DNA of 46,342 nt from a virus. A model generated the notes under the pieces. That model did not search any database and had not been told where the DNA came from. It saw nothing but the letters and a program-made list of their open reading frames with translations. The stretch spans positions 1-46,342 of the IMG/VR virus record IMGVR_UViG_3300042889_000490; one strand, written 5' to 3'. Below are positions 3 to 28,003 of the stretch, piece by piece (positions within the stretch are counted from its first letter, which is position 1; each line of letters opens with the position of its first letter). Both the position numbers and the translations under genes were made by a program.

Positions 3-2984
3 TTTGATTGGCCTGATGAATATCGTCAAATGAATATGCCAGACTCAAGAAAAGGAACAGATGAAGGTGTGGCGGAAGGCTTGAACGAATTTGCACCAGA
101 CGGATTTAACGGTGGTGATGACGATGAAGGATTCAGTCCAGAAATTGCCAAGATGGCACAAGAAGATGGTTTCACTAAAGGTGTAAGCCTCGCTGATGGC
201 GCAACACTAGAACGAGCAATGACCATTAACCACTGGCATAGTCAGCATGGTGGCATGTATAAACAATACTTTGCTAAAGGCTTCAAAGAAGGTCGTATGA
301 ATAAAGTCAATCACGACAATAAACAATACAATCTCAACTTGAAGTTGATGAAGGATGGCAGCATTAGACATGGCGAGCAAGGTGTGGCGGAAGGCGCACC
401 GGAACTATTGAAGAAAGAAATGCCACTACATCGTCATGCTGAAAAATTATTAGCACAAAATGGTGTCAATAAAGACGATCCAGATTATCACCATCATCTC
501 GGTAACACGATAAAACATCTTCGACAGTTTGGTAATATTGATTTGATTAACAAGCAAGGTGTGGAGGAAGGCTGGAAAGATACTGCAACCTTGCTTGGCG
601 TTCCGGTAATAGCAGGTGCTATGGCAGTCGGTGCTCAACACTATGATCGCCAAAAACCTCATGTGCAAGTTGGTGGACAAAATGCTATGATTGTGCAATA
701 TGATTCCAGTCGTATTCCCGGCAATGCTATGGTGCTAAAGGGTGCTGATGGTAAGATGTACAAGGTATGGCGACAGTCTGGAATAGGCATGAACAAGATG
801 ACGCTGGCTTCGCCAGCAGAGCCAGTTAAAGAGCAAGGTGTGGCGGAAGGCTCAGAAGGTCAAAGATATTCTGTTGTTAAGAACGGCAAAGTGACAAAGA
901 GTTTTGATTCAGTGGCAAAGGCCAAAGACTATGCTGCTAAATTTGGTGGCACTATCAAAGACAATAGTAAAGAACAAGGTGTGGCGGAGGACGATAACTC
1001 CGATGTTGCTGACATTTCTGACAGTGATTACATGAGAATTAAAGGTATAGTTGATAAAAAATATCCAGGATATGAACTTGCTGGTCTTAAACAGGATCAT
1101 GATGGTAATATCGGAGTAGAAATATATCATCCCAAAACGCATGATACAAAAGAGTTAAAAACTAAAAGCACATCAGAAAATAAGCAAGGCATGGCGGAAG
1201 GCTGGACTAAACTACCAAGCGGTGATTACCAAAACAGTCACACTGGTGTTCGCACATCAAAGCCACCAGCAAAGAAAAAGCGTGGCGAAAAGACCGGTGC
1301 CGAGTGGGACGCTATAGAAAAAGCAAAGAAAGAGCAAGGTGTGGAGGAAGGCTCCGACTTTGATTCCGCAGCATTTGATCGCCATATGGACAAACTACGG
1401 GCTCAGAAAGAGTTGGAAAAAACTGATCCAATGAGAGCCATGGTTAATAAGATGAAAAGCGATTACGATTACACAGAAAAATCAAAAAGCAAATCTAAAC
1501 AGGATGATGAAAGACAGATCACCGATCCGTTCCATCCTTCACAAGGTGTAAACATTGGTGAGCACCAGTGGTTTGATCCAGGATCATTGAATGAACTAAG
1601 TCCAAAAACTCTTGGATCATATATCAATAAAGCAAATAAAGATGTTGGTACGTTGGGATATGGGCTAGGTGACATAAAAGCAAGACCGGGCAAATATAAA
1701 GATTCGCCAGCTATTGTTAAATCCGTGAAACATGAATTTAAAAATCGCATCAAAGGTGTTGAAAAAGCAGTTAATCGTTTAACCAAAGAACAAGGTGTGG
1801 CGGAAGGCGCCCCAATTTCTGGCGATGGCGGTGCAGTAGACAACTTTAAACAACAGATGGCCAACAATACTGAACTTGCGTATCAGCAAAAGCAACAAGG
1901 CATGGCGGAAGGCTCCGAAGAAGATAGTTACTCAAACAAGTTTGTTCAAAGTCAGATTGACTATTATAAGAAACATCTCTTATCAGGAAATACCGGTGAC
2001 CAGCATCGTATTCGTGGTTCTTTAATGAATTACGAAAGAATCAAAAATCAACGAATCAAAAATAACACTTGGCAAGAGCAAGGTGTGGCGGAGGGCTATA
2101 CTGATGATATAGAAACAACCAGACAGTTCAAAAACGCCATAGCAGGCTTAAAAGCACAAAGTGCTATCAACAAAGCCAAAGACGGTGCCGGTGCCAAGTA
2201 TTACGCCGACGGTTCAAAAGTGACGCCGCAAGAAACTGCCCGCAGAGCCGCTGAAAGAAAAGCACAAAAAGACAAAAAAGGCATGACGGAGGGTGGCTAC
2301 CAACATGGTTTCGCAGATCCTACAGCACCCAGTCTAGGTGGCAGTCGTAGAAAAGATGACGAAGGCAATCCTGAATTTGATGATCGCCAGCGTAGACAAA
2401 CTGGCATGATCTTCTACAAGGTTGACGACGCCGAACTAGCACAACAACTAGGACTCAAACAAACTCGTGCAGGCAAGTGGTATTTGCGTACAGGCAACAG
2501 ACATGCACAGCAGACTGCTGACCGTGCATTTGGCCTGGGACGCATTTGGTATCCTGAATCAGTAGAGGAAGCCGGTGTATTTGGTTTTATGTCAAACGAA
2601 CCAGACAAGCCTGCGGTTAAAAAGCCCAAGTTTACATTGAGTCAGATACGAGACATGAGCAAACAAGAAGATGAAAAAGTTGCAAAATATGTAAGAACTA
2701 ACGATCTTCCAAAGAATCCCAATCACATGCGTGTGGTGCATGATGATGTTGAACTCAGCGAACTCAGCAATGAGTTGTTGGGTCGTTACAAAAAAGAACT
2801 AGGTATCCGTGCTAGTGCCGCAGATCGAGCAGGCAACTTTGATAAAGGTCACGAATACTTTAAAAAAATCAACCGAGCAACTGTTCGCCAAGGTGATAAT
2901 GATGCTCGCAGACACGCAGAAAAAGAAAACGATGTGATGGAAACTCGTTTAAATATGATGCGTAAGGCAGGATACGATCTATGA
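3..2984 (+). CDS. Large mosaic protein with repeated E-Q-G-V-A-E-G peptide (5' partial)
   Basis: The frame is open to the left edge of the window, so the ATG at 30 is probably internal and the true start lies outside. The protein (at least 984 residues after that ATG) consists of dissimilar hydrophilic segments of about 35-150 residues joined by near-identical heptapeptides of the form E-Q-G-(V/M)-(A/E)-E-G. Nine clear copies begin at 375, 552, 831, 972, 1182, 1332, 1788, 1893 and 2076, with weaker ones near 61 and 2280. All begin in the same codon phase. Segments are rich in Lys, Asp and Gly; one (about residues 190-210) has a short hydrophobic stretch. The last 250 residues lack good copies. 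I do not recognise a catalytic domain. It could be a structural or head-packaged protein, but that is inference. It overlaps the Dps-like gene by ATGA. Confidence 0.85.
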   Translation, partial: FDWPDEYRQMNMPDSRKGTDEGVAEGLNEFAPDGFNGGDDDEGFSPEIAKMAQEDGFTKGVSLADGATLERAMTINHWHSQHGGMYKQYFAKGFKEGRMNKVNHDNKQYNLNLKLMKDGSIRHGEQGVAEGAPELLKKEMPLHRHAEKLLAQNGVNKDDPDYHHHLGNTIKHLRQFGNIDLINKQGVEEGWKDTATLLGVPVIAGAMAVGAQHYDRQKPHVQVGGQNAMIVQYDSSRIPGNAMVLKGADGKMYKVWRQSGIGMNKMTLASPAEPVKEQGVAEGSEGQRYSVVKNGKVTKSFDSVAKAKDYAAKFGGTIKDNSKEQGVAEDDNSDVADISDSDYMRIKGIVDKKYPGYELAGLKQDHDGNIGVEIYHPKTHDTKELKTKSTSENKQGMAEGWTKLPSGDYQNSHTGVRTSKPPAKKKRGEKTGAEWDAIEKAKKEQGVEEGSDFDSAAFDRHMDKLRAQKELEKTDPMRAMVNKMKSDYDYTEKSKSKSKQDDERQITDPFHPSQGVNIGEHQWFDPGSLNELSPKTLGSYINKANKDVGTLGYGLGDIKARPGKYKDSPAIVKSVKHEFKNRIKGVEKAVNRLTKEQGVAEGAPISGDGGAVDNFKQQMANNTELAYQQKQQGMAEGSEEDSYSNKFVQSQIDYYKKHLLSGNTGDQHRIRGSLMNYERIKNQRIKNNTWQEQGVAEGYTDDIETTRQFKNAIAGLKAQSAINKAKDGAGAKYYADGSKVTPQETARRAAERKAQKDKKGMTEGGYQHGFADPTAPSLGGSRRKDDEGNPEFDDRQRRQTGMIFYKVDDAELAQQLGLKQTRAGKWYLRTGNRHAQQTADRAFGLGRIWYPESVEEAGVFGFMSNEPDKPAVKKPKFTLSQIRDMSKQEDEKVAKYVRTNDLPKNPNHMRVVHDDVELSELSNELLGRYKKELGIRASAADRAGNFDKGHEYFKKINRATVRQGDNDARRHAEKENDVMETRLNMMRKAGYDL
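375..2096 (+). repeat. Interspersed 21-bp in-frame coding repeat (nine copies)
   Basis: A 21-bp sequence beginning GAGCAAGGTG and continuing TGGCGGAAGGC recurs nine times inside the first gene, at 375, 552, 831, 972, 1182, 1332, 1788, 1893 and 2076, with zero to a few mismatches. Spacings are 177, 279, 141, 210, 150, 456, 105 and 183 bp, all multiples of three. Identical codons are reused for the same peptide, so conservation is at the DNA level as well as the protein level, while the DNA between copies is unrelated. Confidence 0.9.
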
Positions 2985-3412
2985 CACTATCAGAAACTAC
3001 AAAAATAGCATTTGCCAGCGAATACACCTTCTACTTGAAAGCGCACAACTTTCACTGGAATGTGGAAGGTGCTGACTTCCTAGAGCATCATCAATTGTTT
3101 GGCATGATCTACGAAGAAGTATACGGTGCCATTGATGACTTTGCGGAAAAGATTCGCGGCATTGGCAGTTATGTGCCAGCCAGCTACACCAGATTCAGTC
3201 AACTGAGTCAAATCGGCGACGAGACCGACATACTCAGTCCCGGTGCCATGTTGCATGAATTGTCGCAAGACAATGAAAAAATGCTGTTGGTACTAAAGAT
3301 GGCATATGATGCAGCCGAACAAGCCGGTGAGCATGGATTTTCAAACTTCTTGGCCGAGCGCCTGGATGCACACCGCAAGCACGGTTGGATGTTGAGAGCA
3401 AGTCTAAAATAA
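2981..3412 (+). CDS. dps: Dps/ferritin-like protein
   Basis: The 143-residue protein fits the Dps family, whose members oxidise and store iron and often shield DNA. The diagnostic helix pair is present: HNFHWNVEG near residue 22, then a His pair in LEHHQLF and D-D-F-A-E-K-I-R-G-I-G near residue 50. These supply the His, His, Asp and Glu ligands of the inter-subunit ferroxidase site. It is slightly shorter than typical Dps (150-170 residues) and lacks a long basic N-terminal tail, so direct DNA binding is uncertain. It starts with an ATGA overlap with the preceding mosaic gene, implying translational coupling. The window also encodes AhpC and AhpD, so an oxidative-stress role is plausible. Confidence 0.85.
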   Translation: MTLSETTKIAFASEYTFYLKAHNFHWNVEGADFLEHHQLFGMIYEEVYGAIDDFAEKIRGIGSYVPASYTRFSQLSQIGDETDILSPGAMLHELSQDNEKMLLVLKMAYDAAEQAGEHGFSNFLAERLDAHRKHGWMLRASLK

Positions 3413-3448: not shown

Positions 3449-3532
3449 ATGAGTGAAAGAAATAACGAGTACCCAGTATATCCGGAAGACAATGGATATG
3501 ATAGATTTCGTAATCCATACAGTCCGGTATGA
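3449..3532 (+). CDS. Small ORF, 27 residues
   Basis: An ATG at 3449 opens a 27-codon frame rich in Asn, Tyr, Pro and Glu that ends in an ATGA overlap with the desaturase start at 3529. The overlap matches the packing style of this genome and is the main reason to believe it. There is only a weak AGGT upstream and no recognisable domain. It may simply be a leader ORF coupling translation of the desaturase. Confidence 0.4.
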   Translation: MSERNNEYPVYPEDNGYDRFRNPYSPV

Positions 3533-4239
3533 TTGAAACAATATATGTTCTAGTGATGACACATATCACTATCATATGTGTCACAGTTTTCCTACATCGT
3601 GGACAAGCACATCGAGGATTGATATTTCATCCCATACTCAGTCACTTTATGCGAGCCTGGCTTTGGCTAACAACCGGAATGGTCACAAAACAATGGGTGG
3701 CAGTACACCGCAAGCATCATAGATTCACTGAGCAAGAGGGTGACCCACATAGTCCCCATGTTTACGGAATTGGACAAGTATTCTTCAAAGGAGCAGTATT
3801 ATATCATGAAGCAAGCAAAGATAAGGACATGGTTAATACATACGGTGCTGGTACTCCTGCTGATTGGATGGAGCACAACATATACACTCGTCACTCTAGA
3901 CTTGGCATTGGCACTCTCCTTGTGTTAAACACCTTGATATTTGGCGGGTGGGGCATCGTGATGTGGGGCATCCAAATGATATGGATTCCGTTCTGGGCGG
4001 CAGGAGTCATAAACGGTGTGGGTCATTGGATAGGATATAGAAATGGCGAAACTAAAGATCATAGTCGTAATATTGTGCCTTGGGGTATTGTTATTGGCGG
4101 TGAAGAGTTGCACAACAACCACCACCTGGACCCAGCGAGTGCCCGCCTCTCTAAGAACTGGTATGAATTTGATATAGGCTGGATGTATATAAATATTTTT
4201 AAATCGCTTGGCCTAGTCAAGTTAAAAGAACACCCTTAG
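3529..4239 (+). CDS. Membrane fatty acid desaturase (first of two)
   Basis: This 236-residue protein has the three histidine boxes of acyl-CoA/acyl-lipid desaturases: HRGQAH at residues 23-28, HRKHH at 60-64 and HNNHH near residue 194. These bind a di-iron centre that introduces a double bond into a membrane-associated acyl chain. Hydrophobic segments near residues 5-22, 35-52 and 125-165 fit an integral membrane enzyme. It is shorter than typical bacterial delta-9 desaturases (about 270-400 residues), mainly at the N-terminus, where the first box comes unusually early. A second, more canonical desaturase lies at 27203, so the phage may remodel host lipids; the substrate cannot be read from sequence. 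Confidence 0.85.
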   Translation: MIETIYVLVMTHITIICVTVFLHRGQAHRGLIFHPILSHFMRAWLWLTTGMVTKQWVAVHRKHHRFTEQEGDPHSPHVYGIGQVFFKGAVLYHEASKDKDMVNTYGAGTPADWMEHNIYTRHSRLGIGTLLVLNTLIFGGWGIVMWGIQMIWIPFWAAGVINGVGHWIGYRNGETKDHSRNIVPWGIVIGGEELHNNHHLDPASARLSKNWYEFDIGWMYINIFKSLGLVKLKEHP

Positions 4240-4335: not shown

Positions 4336-4364
4336 TTGCTTTTCAACTTAAACTATGTTATAAT
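4336..4364 (+). promoter_or_regulatory. Sigma70-type promoter, predicted leaderless
   Basis: TTGCTT at 4336-4341 and TATAAT at 4359-4364 are separated by 17 bases. The next ATG is at 4371, exactly where transcription should begin, so the message for the following gene would lack a 5' leader. This also argues against the upstream in-frame GTG at 4287. Confidence 0.7.
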
Positions 4365-4370
4365 ACATCT

Positions 4371-4913
4371 ATGAATGATAATCGAAAATGGGGGCTATCG
4401 GCCCAGGCTTCTAACAAAATTCTATTGGCTTCACCCAATTTAGAAGCATTAAAGTTTACACAACTATTGATAAGTCGGTATTTTTTGTTTGAAGTTCGTC
4501 CGCTTGATAGAACTCATAGGCCTATGGGCACAGATATAGAAAGAAAACTACAATGGATTCTTAATATAGTAGAAGCTGAATTGCTTAGTATCAAAATTCT
4601 AATGGAGAAAAAAGAATTAACAAACTTCCAATTGGACTTATTAACAATCACTAAAGATTTCTTAGACACAGTTGGTTGTAACAATTTGATTGTTGAAGAA
4701 TTGTATAAACTCGAGTTTGATAGTTTAACTAACCATATACCCAGTTGTCAGGCACACAAATCATTTGTTTTCAATAAATTACTAAGCGCAAACTACACCA
4801 AATCTGTAGAAGAGATAAGCGATTGGTTTTTTAACGAGTTAGATCAATATCCCATTGATTATTCTACCACAGCATATCATCTAACCGCTGAGTTGGTAAA
4901 GGAAAAATTATGA
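4371..4913 (+). CDS. Hypothetical protein, partner of PP-loop enzyme
   Basis: I do not recognise this 180-residue protein. It appears mostly helical and has no signal peptide or membrane segment. The frame opens further upstream at a GTG at 4287, but a strong promoter ends at 4364, so I chose the ATG at 4371, which would be a leaderless start. The gene overlaps the asparagine-synthase-like gene by ATGA, so the two are probably made in fixed ratio and may act together. A recognition or carrier role for the PP-loop enzyme is possible but not shown. Confidence 0.7.
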   Translation: MNDNRKWGLSAQASNKILLASPNLEALKFTQLLISRYFLFEVRPLDRTHRPMGTDIERKLQWILNIVEAELLSIKILMEKKELTNFQLDLLTITKDFLDTVGCNNLIVEELYKLEFDSLTNHIPSCQAHKSFVFNKLLSANYTKSVEEISDWFFNELDQYPIDYSTTAYHLTAELVKEKL

Positions 4914-17287: not shown

Positions 17288-17845
17288 ATGAAAACAGTTG
17301 GCAATAAGTTAGAAAAATTCGTAGTCACGGGCGTCAAGCCAGGACAACCAGAAGATGCGTTCTTTGACATCACAGATGAGTCATTTGAAGGCAAGTGGAA
17401 AATCATCGTTTACTATCCAAAAGACTTTACATTTGTATGCCCCACAGAAATTGTGGCCTATGACAAGTTAACAGGTGACTTTGCGGATCGTGACGCTGTA
17501 TTGCTCACAGGTAGCACAGACAACGAGTTCTGCAAGGTGGCATGGCAAAAGAGTCACAGTGATCTAATCAAAATCACACACAACCAATTTGCTGACACAC
17601 AGCGTTGGAACCCAGAAACAAATGAAAATCTAAGTTTGATTGAACAGTTGGGTGTATTTTATACTCCAGCAGGTGCCGCACTTCGTGCAACATTTATTGT
17701 TGACCCAGACAATGTTATTCAACATGTAACAGTTAACAACTTGAATGTTGGTCGTAATCCAGAAGAAACTCTACGTATTTTAGATGCTCTTCAAACTGGC
17801 GAACTATGTGCATGTAACCGCACCGTTGGTGGTGAGACTTTATAA
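17288..17845 (+). CDS. ahpC: Peroxiredoxin AhpC
   Basis: The 185-residue protein is a 2-Cys peroxiredoxin that reduces hydrogen peroxide and organic peroxides. F-T-F-V-C-P-T-E contains the peroxidatic Cys51. The C-terminus has G-E-L-C-A-C-N-R (Cys174, Cys176), the arrangement found in mycobacterial-type AhpC, which is recycled by AhpD instead of AhpF. An AhpD gene follows at once with a TAATG overlap, so the pair is self-consistent. AAAGGA lies upstream. Such a pair is unusual in a phage. Confidence 0.93.
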   Translation: MKTVGNKLEKFVVTGVKPGQPEDAFFDITDESFEGKWKIIVYYPKDFTFVCPTEIVAYDKLTGDFADRDAVLLTGSTDNEFCKVAWQKSHSDLIKITHNQFADTQRWNPETNENLSLIEQLGVFYTPAGAALRATFIVDPDNVIQHVTVNNLNVGRNPEETLRILDALQTGELCACNRTVGGETL

Positions 17846-18351
17846 TGGCATTCATTGATGCAGTTAAATCGGCGTTGCCAGACTACGCAAAAGACACCAA
17901 GTTGAATCTTGATGCTGTTCTTTTGCGTAGCACATTGGATGCAGATGTTGCCATGGGTTGCGCCGTGGCCGCACTTGCCGCAACTGGTAACGGTAAAATA
18001 CTAAGTGTAATTTTAGCAGATGCTCCGGTACACGCAGAGTCAGCAATGACCGCCGCAAGTATTATGGCCCAGAACAATGTATGGTATCCCTATGTTGAGA
18101 TGGCAGATGATCCAGCATTGAAAGGATTACCAGCACAGTTACGCATGAATGCCATTGCCAGCCACGGTGGAACTACCAAGTCAAACTTTGAAGCATTTAG
18201 TTTGGCAGCAAGTATTGTGGGCAAGTGTCACTTCTGTGTGAAAGCACATTATGAAACATTGAAGCAAGAAGGCTACACAGTAGAACAACTTCGTGACATC
18301 GGCCGTATTGCCAGTGTGATGAATTCAGTGGCAAAAGTATTGAATAGTTGA
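17845..18351 (+). CDS. ahpD: Alkylhydroperoxidase AhpD
   Basis: The 168-residue, mostly helical protein carries K-C-H-F-C-V-K-A-H near residue 127. This is the C-x-x-C-x-x-x-H motif of AhpD (Cys128, Cys131 and a proton-relay His). In mycobacteria AhpD receives electrons from a lipoyl protein and reduces AhpC. The length is close to M. tuberculosis AhpD (177 residues). It starts inside the ahpC stop codon, so both are translated together. The host would have to supply the lipoylated donor. Confidence 0.9.
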   Translation: MAFIDAVKSALPDYAKDTKLNLDAVLLRSTLDADVAMGCAVAALAATGNGKILSVILADAPVHAESAMTAASIMAQNNVWYPYVEMADDPALKGLPAQLRMNAIASHGGTTKSNFEAFSLAASIVGKCHFCVKAHYETLKQEGYTVEQLRDIGRIASVMNSVAKVLNS

Positions 18352-18380: not shown

Positions 18381-18563
18381 ATGACAAATTTACAAGAACA
18401 TTTTGACGCATATCTAGCAGAGAGTGCAAAGTTTGAAGCCGGTAACAATGCCGCAGGCACTCGTGCTCGCAAGGCCCTGGTAGAACTAGGTAAAGCAGTC
18501 AAGGCACGCCGTAACGAAATTACCGAAACTAAAAATGCGAGAGTAGCTGCCAAAGCAAAATAA
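18381..18563 (+). CDS. Small histone H1-like basic protein
   Basis: The 60-residue protein has an acidic helical start, then a basic Ala-rich half with A-G-T-R-A-R-K-A-L-V-E-L-G-K-A-V-K-A-R-R and a Lys/Ala tail. This resembles the small Hc1/histone H1-like proteins of bacteria and phages. An AAAGGA ribosome site sets the ATG at 18381; an earlier in-frame ATG at 18348 overlaps ahpD but lacks such a site. DNA binding is likely but not proved. The stop overlaps the start of the epimerase gene. Confidence 0.55.
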   Translation: MTNLQEHFDAYLAESAKFEAGNNAAGTRARKALVELGKAVKARRNEITETKNARVAAKAK

Positions 18564-19534
18564 TGAACAGAACTGTTGTTGTAACAGGTGGATGTGGCTA
18601 CATAGGTAGCCATGTTGCGCGAGCATTTAAACAAAACAATGATACTGTAAACATCATTGATCAAATCAAACGAGATCATACTCTCAAAGACATTGATGGA
18701 TATCTGATTGCCGATTTTGCCAGTGACGAGGCATTGTCACTGATTGTTAATTTAGAACCTGATGTTGTTGTGCATTGTGCTGGTACCAGCTTGGTTGGAC
18801 CCAGCATGACTGACCCCGCTGAATACTACACCAACAACATAGTTAAGACCATTGCCTTGTTGAATGTTGTTAGACACATGTCCAAACGGCCTGTGATCTT
18901 GTTTAGTAGCAGTGCCAGTGTTTATGGTGTGCCCGACACTTGGCCCACCGATGAAGGCAGTGACATACAACCTATCAGTCCCTATGGTGCCACCAAGGCC
19001 ATGACTGAACGCATACTGGATGATTACTTCCGAGCATACGATATTCATAGCATGTGTTTTAGGTACTTCAATGCGGCAGGTGCCGAGCCCTTTAACTCGG
19101 ATCTAGGTCAAGAACCGGGCGCTACACATATTGTTGCTCGTGCATTAGAAGCCAGCATTGCTGATCGTGCGTTTACCATCAACGGTGACGATTACGACAC
19201 AGATGATGGTACTTGTGTTCGAGACTATGTACACGTATGGGATTTGGCACAAGCGCACATATTGGGTGTCAACTACCTGTTAGATGACTATCCGCAACCA
19301 GGTGCTTATGTTTTAAATCTTGGCACTCGGGAGGGTATAAGTAATAAACAAATTGTTGATTATGTGTTTAACAAATACGGACTACCATTTGTCAATTACG
19401 GAACAAGACGCCCTGGCGATCCAGATATACTAGTAGCAGACGCCACACAGGCAAAGAACCTATTAGGATGGGTTCCCAAATACAGCAACATCGAAACTAT
19501 TATCGACTCAGCACACAAATGGTACACTAAATGA
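18563..19534 (+). CDS. galE: UDP-glucose 4-epimerase-like NAD-dependent sugar epimerase
   Basis: The 323-residue extended short-chain dehydrogenase begins with the NAD-binding V-T-G-G-C-G-Y-I-G-S-H. It has a catalytic Y-x-x-x-K in S-P-Y-G-A-T-K (Tyr141, Lys145), a preceding S-S-S-A-S-V-Y-G serine segment, and F-R-Y-F-N-A-A-G-A. This pattern fits GalE (UDP-galactose/UDP-glucose interconversion), though related epimerases share it. It leads a block of nucleotide-sugar genes, each overlapping the next by a few bases, suggesting one operon that modifies a glycan. Confidence 0.85.
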   Translation: MNRTVVVTGGCGYIGSHVARAFKQNNDTVNIIDQIKRDHTLKDIDGYLIADFASDEALSLIVNLEPDVVVHCAGTSLVGPSMTDPAEYYTNNIVKTIALLNVVRHMSKRPVILFSSSASVYGVPDTWPTDEGSDIQPISPYGATKAMTERILDDYFRAYDIHSMCFRYFNAAGAEPFNSDLGQEPGATHIVARALEASIADRAFTINGDDYDTDDGTCVRDYVHVWDLAQAHILGVNYLLDDYPQPGAYVLNLGTREGISNKQIVDYVFNKYGLPFVNYGTRRPGDPDILVADATQAKNLLGWVPKYSNIETIIDSAHKWYTK

Positions 19535-19890
19535 CACAACTAAAAGGCCTAGTTCCAAAAGGTTGGGGATCAGAATTTATCTGGGCCACGAACGACCGAT
19601 ACTGCGGCAAATTCATGAACTTCAACACCGGTGCCAAGTTCAGTATGCACTTTCATAGAGACAAAGAAGAAACTTGGTATGTACAATCAGGTAAATTTAT
19701 TGTTCGGTGGATTGATACTGCCACCGCTGAACAACACGAAACAGAATTGCGTGACGGTGCAGTCTGGCACAATGAACCTTGCAAGCCGCATCAACTAGAA
19801 TGCGTTGAAGCTGGTACGGTAATCGAAGTTAGTACACCAGACAGTGTGGAAGACAACTATCGTGTGGGCAAAGGTGATAGCCAACGATGA
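19531..19890 (+). CDS. Cupin, mannose-6-phosphate isomerase-like
   Basis: The 119-residue protein is a single cupin barrel. K-G-W-G-S-E-F at the start, F-S-M-H-F-H-R-D-K-E-E-T-W-Y-V near residue 38 (metal-binding His-x-His and Glu) and a late H-Q-L-E-C matching His resemble the isomerase domain of ManC/type II phosphomannose isomerase. It probably isomerises or binds a sugar phosphate within the surrounding nucleotide-sugar operon, overlapping both neighbours by ATGA. Confidence 0.75.
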   Translation: MTQLKGLVPKGWGSEFIWATNDRYCGKFMNFNTGAKFSMHFHRDKEETWYVQSGKFIVRWIDTATAEQHETELRDGAVWHNEPCKPHQLECVEAGTVIEVSTPDSVEDNYRVGKGDSQR

Positions 19891-20297
19891 CCCGAGTATT
19901 TGTTAACGGCACCTTTGATATCGTTCATCGAGGTCATCTCGAAATGCTAGAATATGCTTGTAGTCTTGGTGATGAAGTATTAGTTGCTATAGACTCAGAT
20001 AGACGAGTTCAAGAACTAAAAGGTAGTGCTAGACCTATCAATAACCAAATTGATAGACAATTTATGCTAGAGAGTTTAAAATATGTTGACAAGGTTTGTA
20101 TTTTTGATTCTGATCAAGAATTAGTTGACACGATCAAGCAGTACGGTGTTGATATCATGGTCAAGGGCAGTGACTACAAAGGCTATCCAATTATTGGACA
20201 AGAATATTGCAAGCAAATAGAATTTTTCAAATTAAAAGATGAATACTCAACAACCAAGACAATTCAAGATATTACTAATCGGCGACGACTGCGTTGA
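19887..20297 (+). CDS. rfaE2: HldE C-domain-like heptose-1-phosphate adenylyltransferase
   Basis: The 136-residue nucleotidyltransferase starts with F-V-N-G-T-F-D-I-V-H-R-G-H, the T/H-x-G-H nucleotide-binding motif. It continues with G-S-A-R-P-I-N and D-I-M-V-K-G-S-D-Y, which closely follow the adenylyltransferase domain of HldE (G-R-P-V-N and D-I-L-V-K-G-G-D-Y). It should make ADP-heptose from heptose 1-phosphate. In most bacteria this domain is fused behind the kinase; here it is separate and comes first, with its 3' end overlapping the kinase gene by 59 bases. Glycerol-3-phosphate cytidylyltransferase is the main alternative but fits less well. Confidence 0.8.
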   Translation: MTRVFVNGTFDIVHRGHLEMLEYACSLGDEVLVAIDSDRRVQELKGSARPINNQIDRQFMLESLKYVDKVCIFDSDQELVDTIKQYGVDIMVKGSDYKGYPIIGQEYCKQIEFFKLKDEYSTTKTIQDITNRRRLR

Positions 20298-21009
20298 TGT
20301 TTACCAGTTTGGAACTGTGGATCGTATCAGTCCCGAGGCTCCTGTGCCGGTGTTTGAATGCACACACGAAGAACGCAAACCTGGCATGGCAGGTAATGTA
20401 TTAAAAAACTTACAAATGCTAGGATGCGAAGTTCTTTACTTGCATTGTGAAAAATCAACAAAAACTAGACTGATTGACAGTCGCAGTAAACAACAAATTG
20501 TACGCATCGACAGCGATAGTAAGTGTACACCACTTGAAAATTGGCCAGAATTTAACTTGGCGTTCTTACATGCCATGCCAGAAAAATTTGATGCTATTGT
20601 TATCAGTGACTATAACAAGGGCACTGTGACTTACAAGTTAATTGCTGAATTACAACAAAGATTTACAGGACCTATTTTTGTTGACACAAAGAAAACAGAT
20701 CTAGCAAGACTTGAAGGCTGTATAGTAAAAATTAATCAACTTGAATTGAGTCGTATCACCAGTCGGTGTACAGATCTAATTGTCACACAAGGTGATAAAG
20801 GTGCCGTATGGAATGACATACATTTTACTACTAGGCGTGTGGAAGTTGCCGATGTGTGCGGTGCCGGAGATACATTTTTAGCGGCATTGACATACAAATA
20901 TCTAATAGAAGATAACATGGCTCCTGCTATAAACTTTGCCATCCGTGCCAGTGCTGTCACTGTACAACACATCGGTAACTATGCACCCAGTGTAGATGAG
21001 GTTGTATGA
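20239..21009 (+). CDS. rfaE1: HldE N-domain-like heptose-7-phosphate kinase
   Basis: The 256-residue PfkB-type kinase contains R-I-S-P-E-A-P-V-P-V near residue 30, a signature of the HldE kinase domain, and D-V-C-G-A-G-D-T-F near residue 210, with the anion-hole G-A-G-D and catalytic Asp. It should phosphorylate D-glycero-D-manno-heptose 7-phosphate at C1. The usual domain is about 315 residues, so some 60 residues are missing, mainly between the substrate and ATP regions. It overlaps the adenylyltransferase gene by 59 bases and hldD by ATGA. Confidence 0.8.
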   Translation: MNTQQPRQFKILLIGDDCVDVYQFGTVDRISPEAPVPVFECTHEERKPGMAGNVLKNLQMLGCEVLYLHCEKSTKTRLIDSRSKQQIVRIDSDSKCTPLENWPEFNLAFLHAMPEKFDAIVISDYNKGTVTYKLIAELQQRFTGPIFVDTKKTDLARLEGCIVKINQLELSRITSRCTDLIVTQGDKGAVWNDIHFTTRRVEVADVCGAGDTFLAALTYKYLIEDNMAPAINFAIRASAVTVQHIGNYAPSVDEVV

Positions 21010-21851
21010 GAATAATGGTCACCGGCAGTCAAGGGTTCATTGGTCGAAATCTAATTGCCTATTTTAAACAACATACCGACTGGCATGTTGACGGATGGGA
21101 TAGTACAGATGAACTCGATCTGTTGTTCAATGATTATGATTGGATCGTACACTTGGGGGCAAACTCAAGTACAGTAGAGCGTGATGTTGATAGCATACTG
21201 CGTACCAACTACGACTTTAGTCGTTGGCTGTATCAACGCTGTTGTGAAGAAGGCATTAACTTACAGTATGCCAGTAGTGCCAGTGTGTACGGACTTGTAT
21301 CTGATTTTCGAGAAGATAGTCCGCCCGATCCTCGCAACCCCTATGCTTGGAGCAAGTACCTGTTTGATCGACATGTAGAACAAAATCCCACCGGAAAAAT
21401 CATTGTGCAAGGATTTAGATACTTTAATGTTTATGGTAATCATGAAGAACATAAAGGATCACAAGCAAGTCCTGTCACCCAATTTAGATTACAGGCCAAT
21501 GCTACAAATACCATAAAACTATTTCATAATAGTGATTATTATTTGCGAGATTTTGTTTGTGTTGAAGATGTTGCCTGGACACATATACAATTCATACAGC
21601 AAGTAATCAATTCAGGAATCTGGAATGTGGGTACTGGTACTGCTGTAAGTTTCAAACATGTAGCTGATCAAATTGTTAGACTAACTCACGCCAACATAGA
21701 ATATATAGATATGCCAGAAGTATTAAAAGGCAATTATCAAGTCTATACTTGTGCCAACACTAACAAGTTGTACGAGGCTATCGGTCCACAAAATTGGATG
21801 TCAATCAAAGATTGGATCAAGGTAAACCCCGATGTTTCACGACCTGTTTAA
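21006..21851 (+). CDS. hldD: ADP-L-glycero-D-manno-heptose 6-epimerase
   Basis: The 281-residue NAD(P)-dependent epimerase begins with V-T-G-S-Q-G-F-I-G-R-N and has Y-A-W-S-K (catalytic Tyr and Lys). HldD-specific segments follow: F-R-Y-F-N-V-Y-G-x-x-E-x-H-K-G-S-x-A-S near residue 140, then L-R-D-F-V-C-V-E-D-V and I-W-N-V-G-T-G-T-A-x-S-F. It epimerises ADP-D,D-heptose to ADP-L,D-heptose, the donor for LPS inner core. Together with the two preceding genes it completes the ADP-heptose end of the pathway. The length is slightly under E. coli HldD (310). Confidence 0.9.
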   Translation: MRIMVTGSQGFIGRNLIAYFKQHTDWHVDGWDSTDELDLLFNDYDWIVHLGANSSTVERDVDSILRTNYDFSRWLYQRCCEEGINLQYASSASVYGLVSDFREDSPPDPRNPYAWSKYLFDRHVEQNPTGKIIVQGFRYFNVYGNHEEHKGSQASPVTQFRLQANATNTIKLFHNSDYYLRDFVCVEDVAWTHIQFIQQVINSGIWNVGTGTAVSFKHVADQIVRLTHANIEYIDMPEVLKGNYQVYTCANTNKLYEAIGPQNWMSIKDWIKVNPDVSRPV

Positions 21852-27202: not shown

Positions 27203-28003
27203 ATGATTAACTTGGATAGACTCAAAAGAGTCTCTCTACAACTTTTATTTGTAGTATCTGTTCCTGTGTCTATTGCAGTTACCATACACTACAATCTGTG
27301 GCTATGGTTTATATGCGGGTTTGTGTATTCTAGAATTGCTGTAACACTGGTCAGTATACAAATTGGTCTACATAGATATTTTGCACACGGACAATTTCGT
27401 ACTGGTAAACTTAGACATATATTTCTATGCTGTATGAGTATTATAGGCGGCGAAGGGGATCCATTGGCATGGTCAAAAACACATGTACATCATCACAAAT
27501 ACAGCGATCAGCCCAAGGACATACACAGTCCAACCGTTGATGGTTGGTTACACAGCAGTCTGGGTTTTATCTTTAAGCCAACTCGTTGGTTTTTAGAAAA
27601 ACATATCCAAATCACCACATCCGGTGTTGTACGCTTGACCAAAGATCCATTGGTAATGTTCATAAATAAAAACTACTTTTACATCTGGTATATGTTAATT
27701 GCAGTTTCATTTTTAATCTCTTGGAAAGTTTGTCTATTCTTTGTCCTAATGCCAGCTGGTATTGCCATCCTGAATACGGGCATACTTTCTGGCACAATAC
27801 TGCACATGAAATTTCCCGGCTCATATAGGAACTACGATACCCCCGACAACAGTCACAACAATCGCTGGATATTGGCCTGGAATTTAGGAGAAGGGCTACA
27901 TAATAATCATCATAAATTTCCATTCGACTATGATACTGCAAAAAAGCCAGGTGAGTTTGATCTAACTGCTTGGGTAATCAAAAAATGGTTTAAAATCAAT
28001 TGA
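27203..28003 (+). CDS. Acyl-CoA/acyl-lipid desaturase (second of two)
   Basis: The 266-residue membrane protein has all three His boxes in canonical spacing: H-R-Y-F-A-H at residues 57-62, H-V-H-H-H near residue 94 and H-N-N-H-H near residue 233. Hydrophobic spans lie at about residues 12-50 and 150-190. This is a classic delta-9-type desaturase layout. It differs clearly from the shorter enzyme at 3529, so the two are unlikely to be recent duplicates. AAGGAA lies upstream. The host must supply electrons. Confidence 0.9.
   Translation: MINLDRLKRVSLQLLFVVSVPVSIAVTIHYNLWLWFICGFVYSRIAVTLVSIQIGLHRYFAHGQFRTGKLRHIFLCCMSIIGGEGDPLAWSKTHVHHHKYSDQPKDIHSPTVDGWLHSSLGFIFKPTRWFLEKHIQITTSGVVRLTKDPLVMFINKNYFYIWYMLIAVSFLISWKVCLFFVLMPAGIAILNTGILSGTILHMKFPGSYRNYDTPDNSHNNRWILAWNLGEGLHNNHHKFPFDYDTAKKPGEFDLTAWVIKKWFKIN

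Follow-up and report, generated by a model that had tools for sequence, protein, structure and literature searches.

A conserved 18-bp coding linker joins exchangeable modules in phage genes that may encode packaged polyproteins

Why does one short DNA sequence recur, in a single reading frame, between segments of one phage protein that mostly do not resemble each other? This question was raised by the first gene of the stretch of DNA analysed here (the window; 46,342 nt, IMG/VR record IMGVR_UViG_3300042889_000490). Among the proteins that phages deliver along with their DNA are some that disarm host defences; the route by which phages acquire new ones is unclear. A sequence-only reading of the window had described nine near-identical 21-bp repeats encoding E-Q-G-(V/M)-(A/E)-E-G, in one codon phase and at spacings that are multiples of three, between mutually unlike segments, and had proposed in-frame insertion of cassettes. 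The gene, its repeats and its recognised modules are listed below. Repeats 1 to 10 were identified by a pattern scan, and the names beginning with L denote other loci or contigs carrying the repeat or its modules.

3-2984, + strand: 3' part of the mosaic gene (putative polyprotein); open reading frame, 993 aa in the window, 5' end cut by the window edge
63-80, + strand: repeat 1, EGVAEG, first base mismatched
81-377, + strand: module LNEFAPDG..., also repeat-flanked in L157 at another position; 81% DNA identity, bounded by repeats
378-395, + strand: repeat 2, QGVAEG
396-554, + strand: module APELLKKEMP..., also in L026 and L210; 93% DNA identity with L210
555-572, + strand: repeat 3, QGVEEG
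834-851, + strand: repeat 4, QGVAEG
852-974, + strand: short module, for which a single-sequence model gives a higher-confidence beta-beta-alpha-beta island
975-992, + strand: repeat 5, QGVAED
993-1184, + strand: module containing a separate island of higher confidence in the same model
1185-1202, + strand: repeat 6, QGMAEG, CATGG variant
1335-1352, + strand: repeat 7, QGVEEG
1791-1808, + strand: repeat 8, QGVAEG
1809-1895, + strand: module APISGDGGAVDNFKQQMANNTELAYQ, family F5, in at least 5 proteins with differing neighbours
1896-1913, + strand: repeat 9, QGMAEG, CATGG variant
1914-2078, + strand: module SEEDSYSNKF..., 97.5% DNA identity with L158, the repeats being its exact bounds
2079-2096, + strand: repeat 10, QGVAEG
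2097-2276, + strand: module YTDDIETT..., 92% DNA identity with L198, bounded by repeats
2277-2294, + strand: repeat 11, degenerate, AAAGGCATGACGGAGGGT = KGMTEG (from the sequence and a 2-mismatch scan of the identical contig L155)
2295-2981, + strand: C-terminal module GYQHGFADP...RKAGYDL, with which the L156 and L157 orthologues also end

At no more than one mismatch to a degenerate pattern (AGCAAGGTGTGGCGGAAGGC-like DNA), 10 copies of CARGGYRTGGMGGARGRC were present within the window gene, compared with 0.04 expected in shuffled sequence. The repeat proper is a near-identical 18-bp sequence coding for QG(V/M)xEG, and the linker AGCAAGGTGTGGCGGAAGGC translates as (E/K/Q)QG(V/M)AEG. The repeat that had been described was thus real, but its count of nine was low, since the gene carries these 10 copies and one degenerate copy. 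The leading E of the claimed heptapeptide held only in part: the residue preceding Q is E, K or Q, the conserved part being the third base G of that codon, and the final G, which follows the second E, is sometimes D. The claim of a common codon phase held for all copies; they share a single reading frame, and their spacings (315, 177, 279, 141, 210, 150, 456, 105, and 183 bp) are all divisible by three. No copy was found in the rest of the 46-kb window. The full-length reading frame, 1274 aa, was recovered from the independent 105-kb contig L155, in which the shared part is 100% identical to the window gene and one more exact repeat copy lies at 64 kb, besides the array in the mosaic gene.

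The window protein as a whole matched no Pfam or PHROG family, and tblastn against cultured phages gave a single weak match confined to the C-terminal domain. Its segments were mostly unlike each other, as had been claimed; the exception is one module type that occurs twice, residues 529-590 and 918-977 matching the same L158 module. Across the system, modules measured roughly 30-150 residues. Folding as one continuous domain would have counted against a mosaic. The single-sequence structure model of the 993 residues was poor (mean pLDDT 44.8, pTM 0.24); its higher-confidence islands each fell inside one segment, a model-based prediction that lends only weak support to separate small domains.

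The repeat is not peculiar to this gene. At least 120 IMG/VR phage stretches contained the exact 18-mer and 56 its CATGG variant, whereas the reversed 18-mer, used as a control, had no match in IMG/VR. Thirty whole records held 1-10 sites apiece, nearly all on the same strand within a cluster, against one match in total for the control. The repeat is not a feature of bacteria either: 257 Gb of bacterial genomes contained 7 single matches without structure, near the approximately 2 expected by chance. Carriers with a detectable capsid gene were T4-like (Gp23, six genomes), and carriers reached 374 kb; Gp23 was undetected in several carrier contigs, possibly because these are fragments. The DNA polymerase of the window was closest to those of the jumbo phages Phosso and Atu_ph07 (47-52%), and the repeat array was absent from the nearest cultured relatives by this gene (Phosso, Atu_ph07, Vibrio 2.275.O, and GAP32). 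Every carrier is uncultured and all loci are metagenomic. A search of papers for the peptide string of the repeat returned nothing, and the literature searched did not describe any conserved coding linker with the roles discussed here.

The linker is conserved across many phages as DNA, beyond the peptide that it encodes. All 440 sites with no more than 2 mismatches in 16 shared one frame, that of the longest open frame, and at up to 3 mismatches 585 sites were in frame and 2 out of frame. The Ala codon of the repeat was GCG in 89% of copies, compared with 8% elsewhere in the same genes, and the Val codon was GTG in 85% compared with 21%; the variable K/E/Q codon in front of the site likewise ended in a conserved G. 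Conservation was sharply confined to about 18 bp, with information outside the site falling to about 0.1 bit per base. The codon bias cannot be attributed to fetching the loci by DNA, because it persisted when protein similarity was the only basis for fetching them (GCG 37/49, GTG 31/37). The peptide is constrained as well: among 388 non-identical copies, Glu was present at P1 in 356, and the residue two positions before it (P3) was V, M, I or L in 373. Roles in RNA structure and as a translational start were considered and rejected; about 10% of the V codons are GTA, which cannot start translation, and no Shine-Dalgarno spacing fits. Across all loci, the TG/CA variant at repeat positions 5-6 (GGTGTGG versus GGCATGG) showed no linkage to the module on either side, in contrast to the positions flanking it.

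Crossovers in the linker move modules from phage to phage and from protein to protein, always in frame. Near-identical modules, with up to 99% DNA identity, occurred in unrelated proteins, and the similarity stopped within the repeats. When repeat-bearing loci were aligned at the DNA level, 313 of 976 alignment ends fell within repeats (41 expected), and 64 of 425 alignments were repeat-bounded at both ends (0.9 expected). Searching the segments of the window protein in other contexts recovered them flanked by the same repeat; for example, window positions 1896-2097 and L158 positions 4343-4544 were 97.5% identical, with unrelated flanks (30% and 32%). Other modules were shared by L015 and L148 (99% DNA identity) and by L048 and L085 (97%), and the pair L060 and L092 differed by an indel the size of roughly one module together with one repeat. 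A fixed order of segments in homologues would have refuted the mosaic reading, but the order differs: the orthologous genes of L155, L156, and L157 have common ends and different middles, and of 516 distinct module adjacencies left after removal of similar proteins just 2 were seen twice. Nearly every protein has its own set and order of modules. Module families were defined by coverage-based clustering; single-linkage clustering was rejected because it merged most segments into one component via fused domains.

Where two loci had just one module in common, either the left or the right, polymorphisms in the left part of the repeat tracked the left module and those in the right part tracked the right module, indicating that crossovers fall inside the repeat. 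A clean empty site was sought at 15 of 39 candidate junctions and none was seen. These two results together favour recombination between repeats over insertion of mobile cassettes into naive sites. The in-frame cassette model was therefore supported in a refined form.

What the chains do was inferred from their N-termini, their modules and the genomes that carry them. In T4, a capsid-targeting sequence (CTS) of about 10 residues is removed from internal proteins by gp21 after Glu (PMC9026906, PMC3012670, PMC5694885), the known sites including ITE-6 and LTE-619 (PMC9026906, PMC5694885). CTS-like N-termini, such as MRAQEFITE, MKTTDFITE, and MNLNDLFTE, were found in many repeat genes and their neighbours, and P3 among 164 of them was I in 85, L in 47, and V in 28. 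The strict CTS pattern was matched by only 32-35% of repeat ORFs, compared with 12% of other ORFs, and the start of the window gene itself (MPSKRNNN.../MNLYDLSQPSKKKKQQL) was merely loosely CTS-like. There is also a mismatch with T4 at P3, gp21 preferring I/L and the linker having mostly V/M. The same modules were found directly behind the Glu of a CTS as well as behind that of a repeat, with a modal offset of 0 (10 of 53 cases, the others scattered). A Peptidase_S77 prohead protease (PF03420) was detected in two repeat-bearing genomes (E=4e-26 and 6e-24).

TAT-type signals function only at an N-terminus. Among 11 internal TAT-type signals, 9 began 2-6 residues after a repeat, compared with 6.6% expected, although the TAT matches fell just under the Pfam cut-off. 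Twin-arginine signals of this type (DRRGFLKGLGAAAVAGAAG...) were observed directly behind repeats in L082, L112, L144, L042, L191, L137, L226, L109, and L150. Their position suggests, as an inference, payloads that the host exports once they have been ejected. Among 60 repeat proteins, 14 Pfam families were matched, including LysM, GH19, GNAT, amidoligase, and 5'-nucleotidase; PHROG matches of the modules included virion structural and tail-lysin families.

The explanation that we prefer is that the product of the gene is a combinatorial polyprotein, made up of proteins that reside inside the head of a T4-related phage and are ejected from it. A capsid-targeting N-terminus would carry the chain into the prohead core, where a gp21-type prohead protease would cut each linker (hydrophobic-x-E|G; V-x-E|G) into separate small proteins, and these would reach the host together with the phage DNA. 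That the linker doubles as a prohead-protease site and that the chain is a packaged polyprotein are both likely in our judgement, but cleavage and packaging are inferred, without a protease assay or a virion proteome. The linker may then act as a universal plug by which new modules directed against the host or its defences are acquired, since any module placed behind it would be packaged, cut, and expressed in frame. On weaker grounds than those for cleavage and packaging, the linker DNA may be kept uniform because it gives co-infecting phages a short homology tract at which to exchange modules.

The most serious rival is that the linker is a flexible hinge separating the domains of one large, uncut protein, for instance a structural protein or a lysin, whose DNA uniformity arises purely from recombination between copies. 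The recombination evidence indeed requires no cleavage, and the PHROG matches to virion structural and tail-lysin families agree with such a protein. We nevertheless regard a hinge as unlikely, because it does not account for a Glu that hardly varies and is preceded, two positions earlier, by a hydrophobic residue, for modules that begin after either a targeting peptide or a repeat, or for TAT-type signals right behind repeats, which are sensible only at a new N-terminus. The 18 bp could instead be the dedicated site of a phage-encoded site-specific recombinase or endonuclease driving cassette exchange, in the manner of an integron or a homing endonuclease. Conservation of about 18 bp at the DNA level with sharp edges, and exchanges that end at the site, speak for this possibility. 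It appears very improbable, although it is not excluded: the site lacks an inverted repeat or attC-like structure, crossovers seem spread over the repeat rather than placed at one phosphodiester, constraints on the peptide apply as well, and no candidate enzyme was identified adjoining the genes, albeit without a dedicated integrase search.

Two further rivals can be set aside almost entirely. A small mobile in-frame element, comparable to the Rickettsia palindromic elements (RPEs) and inserting at many positions in genes, would explain the many in-frame copies per genome; however, the repeat has no palindrome, the inspected junctions gave no clean empty site, all copies share one frame and orientation, and what the copies separate are modules that themselves move. 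An assembly artefact, in which assemblers joined unrelated contigs at a shared 18 bp, must be considered, given that the loci come without exception from metagenomes and that chimeric joins form readily at short identical repeats. Against it, the module order of the window recurs over 993 aa in the independent, longer record L155, frames remain open through every junction, and diverged modules (75-90% identity) also end at repeats, which the joining of modern reads does not explain.

Several neighbouring genes were recorded as separate observations. Downstream of the putative polyprotein gene, the window carries a Dps/ferritin-like gene (2981-3409) and a fatty-acid desaturase gene (3529-4236), both Pfam matches; a second desaturase-like ORF (27203-28000) was recognised by eye only. 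A peroxiredoxin-like gene followed by an AhpD-like gene (17288-18348) was assigned by eye from the translation, and relatives of both adjoin the MCP cluster in L129. Positions 18563-21848 hold sugar-nucleotide genes, among them two epimerases, a cytidylyltransferase-like gene, and a kinase-like gene; together they form a phage-borne block for carbohydrate biosynthesis. HNH- or GIY-YIG-like ORFs, again identified by eye only, lie near the capsid gene cluster in L129 (13475-13903), L132 (7694-8440), and L134 (3134-3820).

One conserved coding sequence marks the points of module exchange and probably also the points at which the product is cut, the cleavage being inferred. Hundreds of candidate ejected proteins can then be listed from sequence alone, by splitting chains at the linker or reading on after the targeting peptide, and the idea that a shared DNA standard drives the exchange of gene pieces between phages becomes testable. 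The targeting sequence, the cut site, and the ready-made junction are possible tools for loading proteins into phage heads.

In effect the system combines T4 internal proteins with modular shuffling. Among known systems, the chains resemble the T4 internal proteins IPI-III and Alt in their M(K/R)xx(E/D)F(I/L/V)xE N-terminus, (inferred) processing after Glu, highly variable payload, and S77 protease in the genome. Of the criteria for T4-type internal head proteins, a CTS ending in hydrophobic-x-Glu is satisfied by many repeat genes and their neighbours but only loosely by the window gene, and an S77 prohead protease in the same genomes is satisfied by the two noted above. The T4 payloads, however, are single proteins with one N-terminal propeptide (Alt having a C-terminal one as well), whereas repeat chains have up to eleven linker sites, and their payloads are exchanged at the linker, whose DNA sequence is conserved. 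Polyvalent proteins are multidomain chains with unrelated activities (GNAT and others) that are thought to be injected with phage DNA, and their authors likened them to polyproteins (Iyer et al. 2017, PMC5512222). Repeat chains likewise combine several biochemically unrelated domains, such as the five named above. Polyvalent proteins have been linked to embedded zincin-type peptidase domains with no conserved linker described (PMC5512222); in contrast, the same 18 bp stand here at every junction, and no zincin-like metallopeptidase domain was among the 14 Pfam families of the 60 repeat proteins.

Cyanophage proteins such as S-RIM8 gp114 and BUCT-ZZ01 UTS51990.1 (L249 2300-4075 and L241 4999-6837), located beside the terminase genes, carry several of the same modules, differently ordered and lacking the 18-bp linker; the modules must therefore either predate the linker system or exist independently of it. 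As in the domain mosaicism of Smug et al. 2023 (PMC10684548), protein fragments are being exchanged between distant phages; unlike general domain mosaicism, the exchange point is one conserved sequence, and a search of that text found no mention of a linker, a polyprotein or head-internal proteins. The promoter-early-stem-loop (PeSL) cassettes of T4-type phages reportedly tie a short repeat to modular shuffling (Arbiol et al. 2010), but these are reported to be regulatory and to lie between genes, whereas the present linker lies within genes and is translated with the frame kept, as the 440 sites attest. RPE-like in-frame mobile elements differ in the two respects already given, palindrome and empty site. 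Integron attC cassettes are intergenic, whereas this site is coding, and an inverted-repeat search found none at the sites. A bolder reading, which we offer only as a possibility, is that the linker is a recombination signal selected for exchange itself, a standard across the phage community by which unrelated phages swap packaged effector modules in frame; such a system would be comparable to an integron, but lying within a gene, its translation supplying its own protease cut site.
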